NCBI GenBank assembly: GCA_020345805.1
Contig: CP070772.1
Coordinates: forward strand, 2,094,730-2,128,452
Source: Phycisphaerales bacterium
GTDB lineage: Bacteria; Planctomycetota; Phycisphaerae; Phycisphaerales; SM1A02
Direction of reading: 5' to 3'
DNA: 33,723 nt
The position numbers and the translations under genes were made by a program. The notes below the pieces were generated by a model, which was not told the origin of the DNA, did not search any database, and worked only from the letters and a program-made list of their open reading frames with translations. Position 1 is the first letter of the stretch, and each line of letters starts with the position of its first letter. Positions 1 to 8,976 of this stretch are shown here, one piece after another.

Positions 1-468
1 CTCATCACGATTGCCTGGATCTGGGGGTGCGGGATAATCCTCCTGAGCATGTCCATCGCCTGGGTGGAGCGGCAGCCCGAGGTGGTGGAGACGACCGTCG
101 TCTTGCTCACGTACCTGGGCGGGCTCATCGTCGTTCTGGGCGGCCTTGGACTGGCCGCATCCATCCGCGCGCGGGAGAAGCGGCAAAAGCGCACGCGCGC
201 GTCGCTGCCCCGGAGAATGCGGATCATCATGAGCTGCCCGTACTGCCATCTCGAACAGCAGTTCGCCGCCGGCCTGGCCCGATGTCATTCCTGCGGCTTC
301 TCCATGATGATCGAGATCGAAGAGCCCCGCTGCGAATGCGGTTACCTGCTCTACCGGCTGGCCGGCGATGCCTGCCCCGAGTGCGGGCGAGAGATCGCCG
401 CCGAATATAGGCGGCAGGGACTTCAGGCCGCACCCGATTCGCCTCCGTCGGATACCGGGGGAACATAG
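1..468 (+). CDS. Membrane protein with C-terminal double zinc ribbon (5' truncated), array copy 1
   Basis: The reading frame is open from base 1, so the gene starts upstream of the window; only the last 155 codons are seen. Two hydrophobic segments (roughly codons 1-20 and 33-57) are followed by a basic stretch and then a cysteine-rich tail. The tail has a first CxxC...CxxC ribbon (CPYC, CHSC) and a second one built on CECGYLLYRL and CPECGR. The second motif is, to my knowledge, common at the ends of planctomycete membrane proteins; its function is unknown. Three paralogs follow directly. The tail probably lies on the cytoplasmic side and could bind zinc and a partner, but that is inference. 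The last 20 residues are Pro/Ser-rich and unlike the other copies. Confidence 0.8.
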   Translation, partial: LITIAWIWGCGIILLSMSIAWVERQPEVVETTVVLLTYLGGLIVVLGGLGLAASIRAREKRQKRTRASLPRRMRIIMSCPYCHLEQQFAAGLARCHSCGFSMMIEIEEPRCECGYLLYRLAGDACPECGREIAAEYRRQGLQAAPDSPPSDTGGT

Positions 469-531
469 AGGTAACGCTGCATCACCGGTGATATCAGGAC
501 GGTGAACCGTGTTGATGATTCCGCGGCGAGG

Positions 532-537
532 TATGCT
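532..537 (+). promoter_or_regulatory. Leaderless-type -10 box (TATGCT)
   Basis: TATGCT ends exactly 6 nt before the ATG at 544. This would place the transcription start on or next to the start codon. No Shine-Dalgarno is seen at that ATG. The same layout recurs at several other genes in the window. Confidence 0.5.
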
Positions 538-543
538 TCACAT

Positions 544-1476
544 ATGCGGCTGAGCAGAGTGCTTCTGTGGTGCCTGGCGGGGGCGGTAGTGTTTTCGATC
601 GTCGTCCCGACTCTGGTGGCGTTCACCGCCGCGCGCAACTGGGTGGACCCGGAAAATCTGGTTCTTTTGGGCATAAACATCGTGTTGTTTACGGGCGCCG
701 CTCTGTGCTGCGCGATCATCATGGAGCGGGGGCGGGCGGTGCCCTGGATGCGCAGCGCGATCGTCGCCAGCGCCTTCTGCGGAGCGGGATGGTCTCTGGC
801 CCTATTCCTTTCCACCGGAAGCAACGAATGGCTGTGGGGCCTTCTGCTCATCTGGCCGACGGTCTGGGCGGGGTTGATGCTCGTCATCGGGATTCTGCTG
901 CTGCCGCGTGACCGCGGCGGCTGGTGGAGGTGGATGCGGCTGGCAACCATCGGCATCACCTCGGTGCTGGCGGTTTATATCTGCCTGGCGGCGACGATCT
1001 TCAATATCGCATACAAGTTCGGCCTGTTCTGGAACGAGGTCTTCATACAGTCAATGTTCTGGCTGACGATAGTGGCGCTCGTAAGCTGGCTTTTCTTCCG
1101 CATCAAGCCGCCGCGCCAGGCGCTTCCGCGGCGACTGATCATGATTTGCATTCCCTTCCTCGTTCTGCTGGCAATGCTTGTATTGGTGCTCTGCCGTAGC
1201 GGTGTTATCGATTTCACCGAGCATTGGATGCCGGATCAGCGCGATGAGGACATTGCGGCCCGAATAGGCGTTGCTCTCGCCCTGCTCGCCGGGGGCGGGA
1301 TGTTCGCCTGCCTGCTAACCATCTGGATCCCCGGCCTTACGGGCCGGCCGCAGCCTGTTGATCACGTGCGCGAATTCGCTCTGCGCTGTCCCCGCTGCGG
1401 CGAAGAGCAAACGGCGAGAACCGGTGCCTACACCTGTCGACGATGCGCCCTGGCGATAAAGGTGGACCTGCTGTGA
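544..1476 (+). CDS. Multi-pass membrane protein with single C-terminal zinc ribbon, array copy 2
   Basis: 310 residues with about eight hydrophobic helices, then one zinc ribbon (CPRCGEEQ...CRRC). The protein stops where the second ribbon (CGYLLYRL...CPECGR) begins in copies 1, 3 and 4, so this copy has lost or never had it. The sequence ALCCAI followed by an acidic/basic stretch at the second helix is shared with copy 4 and supports paralogy. A GTG at 502 would add 14 residues, but ATG 544 is preferred because a TATGCT box sits 6 nt upstream and the hydrophobic segment then begins right after the N-terminus. The TGA overlaps the GTG start of copy 3 by 4 nt (GTGA), so the two are probably translationally coupled. 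Function unknown. Confidence 0.8.
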   Translation: MRLSRVLLWCLAGAVVFSIVVPTLVAFTAARNWVDPENLVLLGINIVLFTGAALCCAIIMERGRAVPWMRSAIVASAFCGAGWSLALFLSTGSNEWLWGLLLIWPTVWAGLMLVIGILLLPRDRGGWWRWMRLATIGITSVLAVYICLAATIFNIAYKFGLFWNEVFIQSMFWLTIVALVSWLFFRIKPPRQALPRRLIMICIPFLVLLAMLVLVLCRSGVIDFTEHWMPDQRDEDIAARIGVALALLAGGGMFACLLTIWIPGLTGRPQPVDHVREFALRCPRCGEEQTARTGAYTCRRCALAIKVDLL

Positions 1477-2342
1477 CTGATGCCGCAACGAAAGTAGTCC
1501 AATTCGCGCTGCGGCTGCTGACCACCGCGCTGCTGGCCTGCGTCGCCGCATCGGTGATCATGGGGGTGATATGCATGGCGGCCGGTCCGGATGTGGAACC
1601 GCTGGCCGAAATGATGTTGACAACCCTGCTCGTCACGGTCCTGTTCGGCTCGTGGACGATGGCCACCGTGGTGATCCGCGCCGGGCGGCTGGTGATCATC
1701 ATGCTCATCAGCGGGCTGGGGACGCTGGCCGGAGTCGGCCTGCTGGTGTGGTTGATTCAAGTGCAGCCGGACATTGACTGGCAGAAAGCGGAAGTGATCT
1801 CCCAGGTGGGAGTGACAATCCTTCTGCCATCACTGGCGCTGGTTCACAACGGGGCGTTGAGCCTGCTGGCGACGCGAGGCATCGTGCGCCTGGTCAAGGT
1901 GGGCACCATGATCTGCCCCTGGGTGTTTCTCGGCTGCATCATGATGTTGATGTGGCGCGACTTTACGTTCCCTTTCGGGTCCTGGGGACTCTTGTTCGTA
2001 CTGGGGCCCGTGATGCTGGTCAGTCTTCTCCTGGCCGCGGTGGGCACGATTGTCGTCCCACTCGCCACGGTCGGGCGTCTGAGTCGTCGCAGCCTGCCGG
2101 AAGGGGCGGTGGAGAGCCGGGTGGCCATCAGCATGGACTGCCCGCAATGCGGAAAGCGGCATCAGTTCACCGCCGGCGCGGCGAAATGCCCGGCCTGTCG
2201 GGCGAAGATGTTCATTGAGTTCGAGGAGCCGCACTGCGAATGCGGCTACCTGCTCTATCGCCTGACCGGTGAAGTATGCCCCGAATGCGGCCGGCCCGTG
2301 CCGGTCGAGCAGCGCTGGGCGGCGGCCGAGACTATCGAGTGA
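1473..2342 (+). CDS. Multi-pass membrane protein with C-terminal double zinc ribbon, array copy 3
   Basis: 289 residues from the GTG at 1473, whose codon overlaps the stop of copy 2 and is preceded by GGTGG. An in-frame ATG at 1443 would overlap the upstream gene by 34 nt and add a hydrophilic stub, so it is less likely. Six or so hydrophobic helices fill residues 5-210. The tail carries CPQC...CPAC, then CECGYLLYRL and CPECGR, matching copies 1 and 4. Note CPAC is followed by Arg rather than the Gly seen in copies 1 and 4. A membrane-anchored zinc-binding protein is the only safe description; no enzyme motif is visible. Coupling to copy 2 suggests that the two products are made together. Confidence 0.8.
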   Translation: MTDAATKVVQFALRLLTTALLACVAASVIMGVICMAAGPDVEPLAEMMLTTLLVTVLFGSWTMATVVIRAGRLVIIMLISGLGTLAGVGLLVWLIQVQPDIDWQKAEVISQVGVTILLPSLALVHNGALSLLATRGIVRLVKVGTMICPWVFLGCIMMLMWRDFTFPFGSWGLLFVLGPVMLVSLLLAAVGTIVVPLATVGRLSRRSLPEGAVESRVAISMDCPQCGKRHQFTAGAAKCPACRAKMFIEFEEPHCECGYLLYRLTGEVCPECGRPVPVEQRWAAAETIE

Positions 2343-2361
2343 CGCGAAGCAAGGCGGAGGT

Positions 2362-2367
2362 TAGGAT
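2362..2367 (+). promoter_or_regulatory. Leaderless-type -10 box (TAGGAT)
   Basis: TAGGAT lies exactly 6 nt before ATG 2374. An upstream GGAGG (2356-2360) also exists but is 13 nt from the ATG, a poor spacing for a Shine-Dalgarno. Copy 4 may thus have its own promoter although it follows copy 3 by only 31 nt. Confidence 0.45.
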
Positions 2368-2373
2368 GCGCTT

Positions 2374-3198
2374 ATGAAACTGCGGACCACCTTCCTCTGG
2401 GCGATGATCATCTCGCTGTCCGCCGCGGCACTGATCGGCATCGCGGTCCTTCTCCTGCCTGATCTCGGCCCTACCGAGGAGATCCTCGCCTCCACCGCGC
2501 TGTTCTCCGCGTTCAGCCTGGTGGCCCTGTGCTGCGCGATCGTGCTGGAGAAAAGGAGACTGGTTCCGCTCATGTGGATCGGTATCGCGGTCGGTTTTGT
2601 GGCAATGCTCGTCTGGCTGTTTATGGTCTGGTTCCATGGGATGTTGAATTGGGAGTGGGAGGAGCGCGTGCTCAGAACAGGCGGCGTGTTCACCATCATC
2701 GCCTGCTGGTGCGCGTACTGCGGCCTCATGTCCCTGCCGCGATTGACGGGGCGGCTGACACGAAGCGTGCAATGTGGAACGATCGGGATCTGGGCCTTGC
2801 TTGCCGTGATCTGGATCCTGGGCCTCTGCTGGGAACAGGAGTTTGAACTCCTCGTGGATTACCTGCTGGGTGAAGATCTGGCTCTTCGCCTTATGGGTGT
2901 GCTGCTGATCCTTGGTGCATGCGGAACGGTCGTGACGCCGATTCTGTGGAGAGTGCAGGCCCTGCGGGCCGCGGCGGCGCGCGAATCGGTGCCAGTCGAG
3001 CTGCGCGTGCAGATCGTCTGCCCACGCTGTCACACGCAGCAGGAGTTGATGACCGGCCGCAGCAAATGCGCCAAGTGCGGCCTGCGGATCAGGATCACCG
3101 TCGAAGAGCCGCGCTGCACTTGCGGCTACCTGCTCTACCGTCTTGAAAGCGACACCTGCCCAGAATGCGGCCGGAAGTTGGCGCAACAGGACACCTAG
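2374..3198 (+). CDS. Multi-pass membrane protein with C-terminal double zinc ribbon, array copy 4
   Basis: 274 residues: a signal-anchor-like first helix, about six hydrophobic helices in residues 5-195, then the double ribbon (CPRC...CAKC, CTCGYLLYRL, CPECGR). The helix-2 motif ALCCAI plus a charged stretch matches copy 2. The last residues after CPECGR are short (KLAQQDT). It is the last member of the array; the next gene, a DinB-like protein, has its own promoter-like box. Known: zinc ribbons of this form bind one zinc through four cysteines. Inferred: the four products form related, possibly hetero-oligomeric, membrane proteins. Nothing in the sequence gives a substrate. Confidence 0.82.
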   Translation: MKLRTTFLWAMIISLSAAALIGIAVLLLPDLGPTEEILASTALFSAFSLVALCCAIVLEKRRLVPLMWIGIAVGFVAMLVWLFMVWFHGMLNWEWEERVLRTGGVFTIIACWCAYCGLMSLPRLTGRLTRSVQCGTIGIWALLAVIWILGLCWEQEFELLVDYLLGEDLALRLMGVLLILGACGTVVTPILWRVQALRAAAARESVPVELRVQIVCPRCHTQQELMTGRSKCAKCGLRIRITVEEPRCTCGYLLYRLESDTCPECGRKLAQQDT

Positions 3199-3314: not shown

Positions 3315-3818
3315 ATGAGCGAAGTACAGAATTCATGCGAACTCACCGTCTGGCTGCTGGAGCGGCTGTTCCATCCGACTGAAGGCTGGGAACACGGATC
3401 GTTCCTTTCACTCATCGGCGACCTCACCTCCGATCAGGCGCAGTGGCGACCGGCGCCGGACAAGCGCTGCATATGGGAGCTGGTCATCCACATGCGCTCC
3501 TGGCGGTCGTTCGTCAACAACCGTCTCCGCGGCGAGCCGGTGCCGGATCCGTTTGTGCCCTGGCCGCCCCTGCCGGAGGCGAACGATGGAGGCGATCGCG
3601 AGCGACTATGGGCCGCTGAGATCGAAAGTCTGAAGGAAATCCACAACCAGCTTGTCGAGGCGGCAGGAAATCTCGATCCGGCCGAGCGTCATCCGCATCC
3701 CGACCTGAAGCACCTGCCGCACGTGATCGGGCCGCTGGGAGTGCAGATCCACGATTCCTATCATCTCGGCCAGATCGCGATGCTGCGGGGTATGCAGGGT
3801 TTGCCGCCGGTGGAATAG
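3315..3818 (+). CDS. DinB-like four-helix protein
   Basis: 167 residues, the normal size for the DinB/YfiT-like family. His59 in helix 2 and the HDSYH pair (His146, His150) near the end fit the three-histidine metal site of that family. The segment HDSYHLGQIAMLRG is the typical DinB C-terminal helix. Members are often metal-dependent thiol-handling enzymes or stress proteins; the substrate cannot be told here. The gene stands alone between the membrane array and the convergent pilT-like gene, and has its own leaderless-type promoter box. Confidence 0.82.
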   Translation: MSEVQNSCELTVWLLERLFHPTEGWEHGSFLSLIGDLTSDQAQWRPAPDKRCIWELVIHMRSWRSFVNNRLRGEPVPDPFVPWPPLPEANDGGDRERLWAAEIESLKEIHNQLVEAAGNLDPAERHPHPDLKHLPHVIGPLGVQIHDSYHLGQIAMLRGMQGLPPVE

Positions 3819-6359: not shown

Positions 6360-6815
6360 TCAGGCAGACGGCTGCGTCGGCGTATCTGTGACGACCGACT
6401 CGATGTTCGTTTCGGCGGCGAAGATCTTCTGCACCGCGCAGGCTCTGGACGCGGCGTAGATTCGCTTTCTCTCCTCATCACTGAGATCGCCGACGATGTT
6501 GACTTCGCACTGGATCGTGTCGGGCACGTCCGCCTTGCTGCTCTTGACCCAGCGGGCGAAGACGGTCGCGGATTCCATCGCATAGCCTTTGCGTTCGGCG
6601 AACTTGCCCATCGCCGAGGCCTTGCATGAGCAGAGAGCTGCGAGCATCAGATCCACCGGCGTGGGGCCTTCGTTCGTGCCGTCCTGATAGGGCGGCTGAT
6701 CAGCCACCACCGAGTGGCCGTTGGCCATGATGATCTCGGTTCGCGTGCCCTTGCCGATGGTGGCCGAGGCGCCGTTGCGGTGAATTCCGGGAACGTTGGG
6801 ATCTTCAGCGGACAT
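6360..6815 (-). CDS. OsmC family peroxidase-like protein (cysteines intact)
   Basis: 151 residues, the family size. The central helix reads LMLAALCSCKASAMG with Cys64 at the usual peroxidatic site (Cys62 is extra), and SRACAVQK holds Cys126, the usual second cysteine. OsmC proteins reduce organic hydroperoxides with these two thiols. It is the last gene of a minus-strand trio (paralog 7320-7784, CoA-binding protein, this gene) with gaps of 41 and 52 nt. No clear Shine-Dalgarno is present before the ATG. The intact cysteines contrast with the paralog two genes upstream. Confidence 0.88.
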   Translation of the reverse strand: MSAEDPNVPGIHRNGASATIGKGTRTEIIMANGHSVVADQPPYQDGTNEGPTPVDLMLAALCSCKASAMGKFAERKGYAMESATVFARWVKSSKADVPDTIQCEVNIVGDLSDEERKRIYAASRACAVQKIFAAETNIESVVTDTPTQPSA

Positions 6816-7319: not shown

Positions 7320-7784
7320 TCAGGTGACGAGTCGGGTGTTGATGAGCGTTTCGTGTCGCAGGGCGTGCTGGACCCAGCAGTGGTTGGACATTTCCGCCAG
7401 ACGCCGGCGCTGCTGGTCGGTGAGTTCATCGCCGAGGATTTCGATCTCGCAGTCTATGACATCGACGATCCCTCGCCGCCCTTCGCCCAGCGATCGGGCG
7501 TTTTCGCGATGGTGTCGGGCGGAGATGACGGCGCCGGTCATCGGCCAGCCGTGTCGGTCGGCCTGCATGCGGATCAGGGCCGCCTTGCCCGCGGCAAACG
7601 ACGCCAGCAGAAGATCGATGGCGGCCGGCCCGTCGTTCTGACCGCCCGCGAAAGCGGGCAGATCGGCAGTCAGGCTGTGCCCTTCCGGCAGGGCGATCTC
7701 GGTGTGATAGGTGGCCTTGCCGATGCGGGCTACGGCCGTGCCGCTCTCGGCCCGGCCGGTCAGGGGGAGGGAGGGCTCTTCCAT
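7320..7784 (-). CDS. OsmC-fold paralog lacking the peroxidatic cysteine
   Basis: 154 residues that align along their length with the OsmC protein encoded two genes downstream (for example IDLLLASFAAGKAALI against VDLMLAALCSCKASAM). The peroxidatic position is Gly66 and the neighbouring position Ala64, while Cys136 in SNHCWVQHAL keeps the second site. It therefore cannot run the usual two-cysteine peroxidase cycle; it may bind a ligand, use another chemistry or pair with the other OsmC subunit. It is the first gene of the trio, with a leaderless-type box before its ATG and no Shine-Dalgarno. Confidence 0.85.
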   Translation of the reverse strand: MEEPSLPLTGRAESGTAVARIGKATYHTEIALPEGHSLTADLPAFAGGQNDGPAAIDLLLASFAAGKAALIRMQADRHGWPMTGAVISARHHRENARSLGEGRRGIVDVIDCEIEILGDELTDQQRRRLAEMSNHCWVQHALRHETLINTRLVT

Positions 7785-8034: not shown

Positions 8035-8976
8035 GTGCCTAACACACAATGCAAATCGATCGGTCTGGCTATGGGACGTTTGCGGTTGGCCGTGAGCGTC
8101 TGCTGCTGGATAGTGGTGGTGGCCTTGGCGACTCAGGTTTTCGTCTGGTCGCTGATAAACTTCACCCAAGTGCGGTACGAGAAGCTGGAGGGGGGCGGCG
8201 GCTCGCCGCTGATTGTGGAGGGGCCAAGCCCCCGGGAGAAGACCATGCAGACGGTCACCCTCTCCGGTAACGGCGAGGGGACGGCTCGAGAGCCGGTGGA
8301 GGCCAATCGCGTGATCAGCCGGTGGGACCGGGTGATGGCGTCGGCGTTGCCGCTCACCCGCGGCGCCGGGCTGCTGGCAATGCTGGTCATGATCCCCCTG
8401 ATCGCAATGGGGGTCCTGCTGGGGGCCGGCTCGGCCACCCCGGGCGTGGAAAACACCGTCTCCTCATTCTGCTGGGCCACGGTGACGGCGCTGCTGATAA
8501 TGCCGGTGGGGGCGATATTCCAGTTGCCCTGGGCTGAAGGCGGGCTGGTCAGCTACCCGCTGATGGTTCAGTCCGCGGACAGCGCACAGGGGGCGATGCT
8601 GAGCCTGATCCCCGGCGCATCGGAAGGCGGCGCCCATCTCGCCCTGGCTCGCTTCGTGGGTCTGCCGGCGGTGTGCATCGCCGGTCTGGCTCTGGTCGGC
8701 CTGCGCTTCTGTGCCGGTGTCCGGGCGGCGATGCTGCCCAAGGAGGACATGCGACTGGATCCGGAGTTGGAGAAGGAAGTGTCCAACATCAAGCCCACCA
8801 GCCTCATCGGAGGCCGAATGGCCGGGGCACTCTCCCAGGCGGTGAGCGCCGATCCGCCCAAGACGGGGGGCGGTTCTCCGGTTCCCTCCACCCCACCCGC
8901 TGAATCGCCCAAGTCGGCATCGATGCCCGGCGCTCGTGAGCTCTCGACCGGCGAAGCGCCAAAACGGCTGATTTGA
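8035..8976 (+). CDS. Uncharacterised membrane protein
   Basis: 313 residues, family not recognised. A hydrophobic helix lies at about 18-38, three more at about 115-140, 150-170 and 205-225, and a 60-residue Pro/Ser-rich soluble tail follows. GTG 8035 is preferred because GGGGAG lies 6 nt upstream; ATG 8071 is an alternative giving 301 residues. No catalytic motif is seen. The interval 7785-8034 upstream shows no convincing gene. The gene stands between the OsmC trio and the glycan cluster, and nothing links it firmly to either. Confidence 0.7.
   Translation: MPNTQCKSIGLAMGRLRLAVSVCCWIVVVALATQVFVWSLINFTQVRYEKLEGGGGSPLIVEGPSPREKTMQTVTLSGNGEGTAREPVEANRVISRWDRVMASALPLTRGAGLLAMLVMIPLIAMGVLLGAGSATPGVENTVSSFCWATVTALLIMPVGAIFQLPWAEGGLVSYPLMVQSADSAQGAMLSLIPGASEGGAHLALARFVGLPAVCIAGLALVGLRFCAGVRAAMLPKEDMRLDPELEKEVSNIKPTSLIGGRMAGALSQAVSADPPKTGGGSPVPSTPPAESPKSASMPGARELSTGEAPKRLI

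Follow-up and report, generated by a model that had tools for sequence, protein, structure and literature searches.

An undescribed family of zinc-ribbon membrane proteins in Phycisphaerales, with one- and two-ribbon members encoded by overlapping genes

Four neighbouring genes at the left edge of the window, by which we mean the whole stretch of 33,723 nucleotides analysed here (contig CP070772.1 of the Phycisphaerales bacterium assembly GCA_020345805.1), encode paralogous membrane proteins of a family that is conserved and undescribed and is no artefact. An earlier note, made from the DNA letters, had drawn attention to the array and to the cysteine-rich tails of its products but left unnamed what proves to be the stronger signal, a fixed overlap between the genes for a one-ribbon protein (S) and a two-ribbon protein (D), together with a link to a gene pair composed of ilvE and a gene for a Yip1-like zinc-ribbon protein (Yip1/Zn-ribbon gene). 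Taken as a whole, these features may best be explained by a complex of S and D built on their ribbons, a tentative reading that we place somewhat below an even chance. We set out below the genes and their tails, the S-D pair and its genomic setting, the readings that compete to explain them, and their relation to known families.

The array genes, their tails and their membrane bodies

With D standing for two-ribbon and S for one-ribbon proteins, copies 1 to 4 of the window are named D1, S2, D3 and D4. The features of the window are:

1-468, plus strand: D1, C-terminal 155 aa, with the last two transmembrane (TM) helices and two zinc ribbons (235-390)
544-1476, plus strand: S2, 310 aa, with 8 predicted TM helices and one zinc ribbon at 1387-1446
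1473-1476, plus strand: GTGA overlap of the S2 stop codon and the D3 start codon
1473-2342, plus strand: D3, 289 aa, with 6 TM helices and two zinc ribbons (2139-2294)
2374-3198, plus strand: D4, 274 aa, with 6 TM helices and two zinc ribbons (3019-3174)
8113-8976, plus strand: conserved membrane protein outside the array, 35% identical (E 2e-51) to L084:9202-10206

The four genes lie side by side on the plus strand, each coding for a membrane body that ends in a Cys-rich tail, where the earlier note had located them; its description of four copies of one plan holds for their positions, but copy 1 is only a C-terminal half, and copy 2 has a single ribbon and lacks the half that bears the CGY and CPECG motifs. 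In D proteins, eight cysteines are laid out as two four-Cys ribbons, ribbon 1 (C-P-x-C-x12-C-x2-C) being followed by ribbon 2 (E-E-P-R-C-x-C-G-Y-x9-C-P-E-C-G), whereas S proteins have only four, and S2 ends directly after ribbon 1. CGYLLYRL and CPECGR are, as had been remarked, identical across three copies, and the tail is indeed better conserved than the membrane part, mainly owing to ribbon 2: identities among the window copies are 67-74% in ribbon 2, 28-48% in ribbon 1 and 8-23% in the bodies. Among 36 D proteins retrieved by a whole-protein search, mean identity is 57% in ribbon 2, 37% in ribbon 1 and 20% in the body, and every one of them retains all eight Cys; because the relatives in this set were found over the whole protein (homology down to E 3e-87), conservation of the tail is no artefact of how they were fetched. 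Another 72 named loci were fetched by the pattern [EDQ]EP[RH]CxCGY, so that their tails are conserved by construction. Both sets pooled comprise 103 unique members, of which 89 are D and 12 are S, contig ends truncating the other 2. Invariant columns are all within the tail, whose conserved cysteines suggest that the ribbons bind zinc; by itself, the tail gives weak zinc-ribbon matches.

By hydropathy, D3 and D4 each have six TM helices and S2 has eight. Across 65 sequences, loop charges alternate as for an N-in/C-in topology, a pattern that places the ribbons on the cytosolic side, with both protein ends in the cytoplasm; this predicted arrangement is well supported and agrees with the cytoplasmic zinc module that had been envisaged at the outset. 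An AlphaFold2 single-chain model of D4 is confident (pLDDT 91, pTM 0.73), and comparison of its body with PDB folds gave middling helical-bundle matches with no standout, the best being E 0.49 with Foldseek and, with VIA-align, Z 10.6 over 139 residues at 4.7 A, within the range of unrelated helical bundles; the tail model found weak ribbon matches only. Profile comparison of the TM hairpins (probability 87 for hairpins 2 and 3, 54 for 1 and 3) is suggestive of a body made of hairpins of common origin, three in number or four in S2, which would account for the additional pair of helices in S2. In the body, the columns with at least 60% conservation contain mainly L, G, W, T and R, with almost no invariant polar residue, and this predominance of small or hydrophobic residues argues against an active site.

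The S-D pair and its genomic setting

All 12 of the 12 S genes, which come from 10 genera, overlap a D gene by 4 nt (ATGA in eight, GTGA in four), D starting within the stop codon of S, and a complete D follows S in 11, the twelfth D running into a gap. S bodies are mutually only about 20% identical, so the overlap has been held through near-complete sequence change. Overlaps of 4 nt are frequent in bacterial operons. As S and D always come from overlapping genes, they probably function as a pair, and this pair is intact in two genomes (G009 and G027) that have neither ilvE nor a Yip1 gene nearby.

In a tree of the bodies, whose long branches leave the deep joins unsure, 8 of 11 S genes fall in one clade (98/89) and paired D genes mostly cluster together. 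G012 supplies the sister of S2, an S gene (98/84), and that of D3, a paired D (100/86), while D4, placed in a 21-gene clade (100/99) whose genomes mostly have single copies, is the ortholog of the relatives' single-copy gene. The same gene types as in the window make up the arrays of G012 (D-S-D-S-D) and G024 (S-D-D). To judge from the tree, which excludes recent tandem duplication as their origin, S2, D3 and D4 are paralogs of long standing that have been passed on together as an array. Reading S as a broken D was likewise rejected, S genes mostly clustering together and all ending at the same point.

Whole-protein search found a family member in 35 of 61 genomes of the same order, S genes occurring in 10 of those 35. 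All titles of the 72 named loci refer to planctomycetes or to unnamed bacteria, with Phycisphaerales or Phycisphaerae in many. An automatic count gave one member in 55 of these loci and two to five in the remainder, some of the multiple counts being a neighbouring Yip1-like ribbon protein rather than a true member; a single D is thus the rule and the array the exception, and, D alone being the common state, S is dispensable for D. Tandem arrays, whose lack of conservation in relatives the earlier note had named as grounds for refutation, do occur and are kept there, although single D genes are commoner. The gene upstream of the first member, assessed at 67 loci from related and hence mutually dependent MAGs, is a Yip1/Zn-ribbon gene in 30, ilvE in 11 and a DinB gene in 11. 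The commonest site of D immediately follows ilvE and the Yip1/Zn-ribbon gene, the latter being absent from a second group of loci, with a DinB neighbour, and from a third, where ilvE adjoins D; occasionally it stands as two successive copies (homologs of L082:11316-12803). A DinB-superfamily gene follows the array of the window (3315-3818), and another (L103:1759-2388) precedes a single D in other relatives. DinB was discarded as part of the system, the DinB of the window and those beside D elsewhere being only remotely alike (24%).

Relatives of the body, matched by the same profile at E down to 7e-30, occur in other planctomycete families (L172-L185), in a scan that scored eight candidates per genome, such that absence there means little. 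They end in a single ribbon (L175 and L176, S-like), a coiled-coil-like stretch or no recognisable tail, the second ribbon being absent, which fits a later addition of ribbon 2 in the present order.

The left edge of the window required separate attention, given that its first position directly abuts a 100-N scaffold gap (genome 2094630-2094729, equal to L019:11900-11999), at which the first copy is cut. A second 100-N gap lies at genome 2170136-2170235 (L082:10137-10236), and beside it, 75 kb from the array of the window, is the missing start of the array. There, at 2.170 Mb on the minus strand of the same genome, an SDR gene, ilvE, the Yip1-like zinc-ribbon gene, S and the start of a D follow one another in the order seen in relatives, with the S stop overlapping the ATG of the gap-cut D gene. 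Two features of this locus matter here:

L082:11316-12803: Yip1-domain protein, about 500 aa, with two N-terminal zinc ribbons, its gene directly downstream of ilvE in many relatives
L082:10237-10598, minus strand: N-terminal half of a D, 120 aa, which enters the second 100-N gap and complements D1

The earlier suspicion that the array reaches upstream of the window, and the advice to inspect the sequence there, were thus borne out by an S and an N-terminal half of D that ends at the second gap. The 120-aa half corresponds to about the first four helices and D1 to the last two plus the tail, leaving about 20-25 residues missing. Because the two D halves are complementary and the gene order is conserved, the segment between both gaps has probably been scaffolded in the wrong orientation, and the true order would probably be SDR-ilvE-Yip1/Zn-S-D1-S2-D3-D4. 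A genuine inversion, with two distinct cut D genes, is the alternative, mis-orientation being the simplest reading. The LysM/nuclease-like side of the supposed mis-join was uninformative, the nuclease adjoining LysM in no relative within the fetched stretch. In relatives, the ortholog of the membrane protein encoded at 8113-8976 stands downstream of the array and mqnC, and by this comparison of gene order the protein is a remnant of the ancestral arrangement in the window; a search of this genome, which is about 80% complete, revealed no gene like mqnC.

Competing readings of the ribbons and the overlap

In the S-D complex that we prefer, translational coupling would set a fixed ratio of S to D, and the two would form a hetero-oligomer, joined by the Yip1-like protein at loci that have it; the putative zinc-binding cytosolic ribbons would act as structural docking modules joining the subunits, and the bodies as a membrane scaffold, neither enzyme nor transporter. 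The invariable overlap (12/12) and the separate orthologs of S2, D3 and D4 in other genera speak for such a complex. Weighing against it are the prevalence of D without S, the lack of the Yip1 gene in two groups of loci, the commonness of 4-nt overlaps in bacterial operons and the relatedness of the MAGs counted. Membrane organising or envelope homeostasis would be its likeliest role, a guess that we hold with much lower confidence than the complex.

The distribution of ribbon 2 bears on this reading and on two others. This genome has 15 copies of its core, CGY-x9-CPECG, of which just three lie in the array, the other copies (L155-L169) lying at the C- or N-termini of proteins nearly all of which have predicted TM helices; of the 61 genomes sampled at order level, 47 have the motif, with up to 43 copies in G055, and in a 199-genome sample of the phylum it occurs in 7 genomes, all of this order, the reversed-motif control being 0 throughout. 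One N-terminal ribbon of the Yip1-like neighbour is of this type, like D ribbon 2, and in a profile comparison of D with that neighbour the ribbon stretch alone aligns (probability 94, E 8.5e-8); of 25 members of the upstream partner, 15 match a Yip1 profile (best E 8.9e-9). With ribbon 2 on so many other membrane proteins, its sharing with the Yip1-like protein says little about contact, which counts against the S-D complex, and the shared tail is no evidence for a partner private to the array. The proposal that the copies have one common partner through the zinc tail accordingly loses its footing, the more so since copy 2 is without ribbon 2, and nothing supports the companion idea of different signals or cargoes per copy. 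The same spread to both termini of other membrane proteins would be expected if the zinc tail were a general docking or quality-control tag for one cytosolic factor, with the array proteins as clients and the S-D coupling secondary; we consider this unlikely, albeit worth keeping in view, as ribbon 1 and the S-D overlap are left unexplained by it and S proteins lack ribbon 2. In a bolder reading, the module on dozens of membrane proteins might be a shared assembly code, with S-D pairs and the Yip1-like protein as its core complex, a proposal to which we assign a distinctly low probability. As separate observations, two adjacent and mutually similar small membrane proteins with N-terminal CPECGYDL-type ribbons are encoded at L019:6619-7751, and two similar small minus-strand proteins of the window (6360-6815 and 7320-7784), OsmC-like by eye, flank a small gene, a possible duplication.

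The six TM helices, the cytosolic metal site and the paralogs with diverging bodies could also be accommodated by metal or redox sensing or handling, in which the Cys-rich tail would be the sensor, the body a channel or transporter, and the paralogs would differ in cargo; the body, however, is nearly devoid of conserved polar residues, none of the conserved neighbours was recognised as a metal or redox gene, and we regard this as very improbable. Hardly more persuasive, and quite improbable in our judgement, is the absence of any joint function, with D an accessory membrane protein that weak selection maintains and the array no more than what tandem duplication left behind: S occurs in only 10 of 61 relatives, many relatives have no member that was found, and the bodies evolve very fast, but the paralogs are old and keep their register from genus to genus, no S gene has lost its overlap with D, and every D retains the full set of eight Cys. 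An S-D complex on ribbons thus stays the reading that we favour. Proteins that were hypothetical and seemingly unrelated become a defined, testable unit obeying strict rules, namely two tail types, the S-D overlap and a frequent site beside a Yip1-domain gene. Planctomycetes are bacteria with unusual internal membranes, and the order-level spread of one zinc module across many of their membrane proteins raises a distinct question that merits attention.

Relation to known families and systems

The array proteins match no known family above cut-off in Pfam, NCBIfam, PHROGs and PADLOC scans, in keeping with the earlier view of them as undescribed. A literature search returned nothing on this family or on the CGY/CPECG module, and a PDB sequence search yielded designed zinc fingers and zinc ribbons of a generic kind. 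Like D, the Pfam model DZR (PF12773) and related double-ribbon models have two successive ribbons, and the eight-Cys layout of DZR is present in D proteins but not in the four-Cys S proteins; D ribbon 2, in most members, opens with C-x-C-G-Y instead of the C-x2-C of DZR. Three D proteins score 14.6, 19.4 and 10.7 bits, below the curated DZR cut-off of 27.3, and at an E value of at most 0.01, DZR matches 17 of the 65 members scanned (best E 0.00039). The Yip1 neighbour (PF04893) resembles D in its multi-TM body and in having zinc ribbons in tandem, including one of the CGY-x9-CPECG type, but its ribbons are N-terminal and the two bodies fail to match each other; the Yip1 profile has no match in the window proteins or among the matches listed for 65 members. 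Firmicutes have membrane proteins of the TcaA/YvbJ type, likewise equipped with zinc ribbons and placed in an envelope context. YdjG and YdjL of the PSP context are zinc-ribbon membrane proteins of the envelope too (PMC11237479), and PspA, band-7 and TPM were not recognised among those conserved neighbours of the array genes that were scanned. TcaA/YvbJ and YdjG/YdjL differ from the array proteins in body, ribbon position and gene context, and the likeness is one of resemblance only. Zinc-ribbon membrane proteins as such are therefore known; what is unusual here is the strict S-D gene rule.
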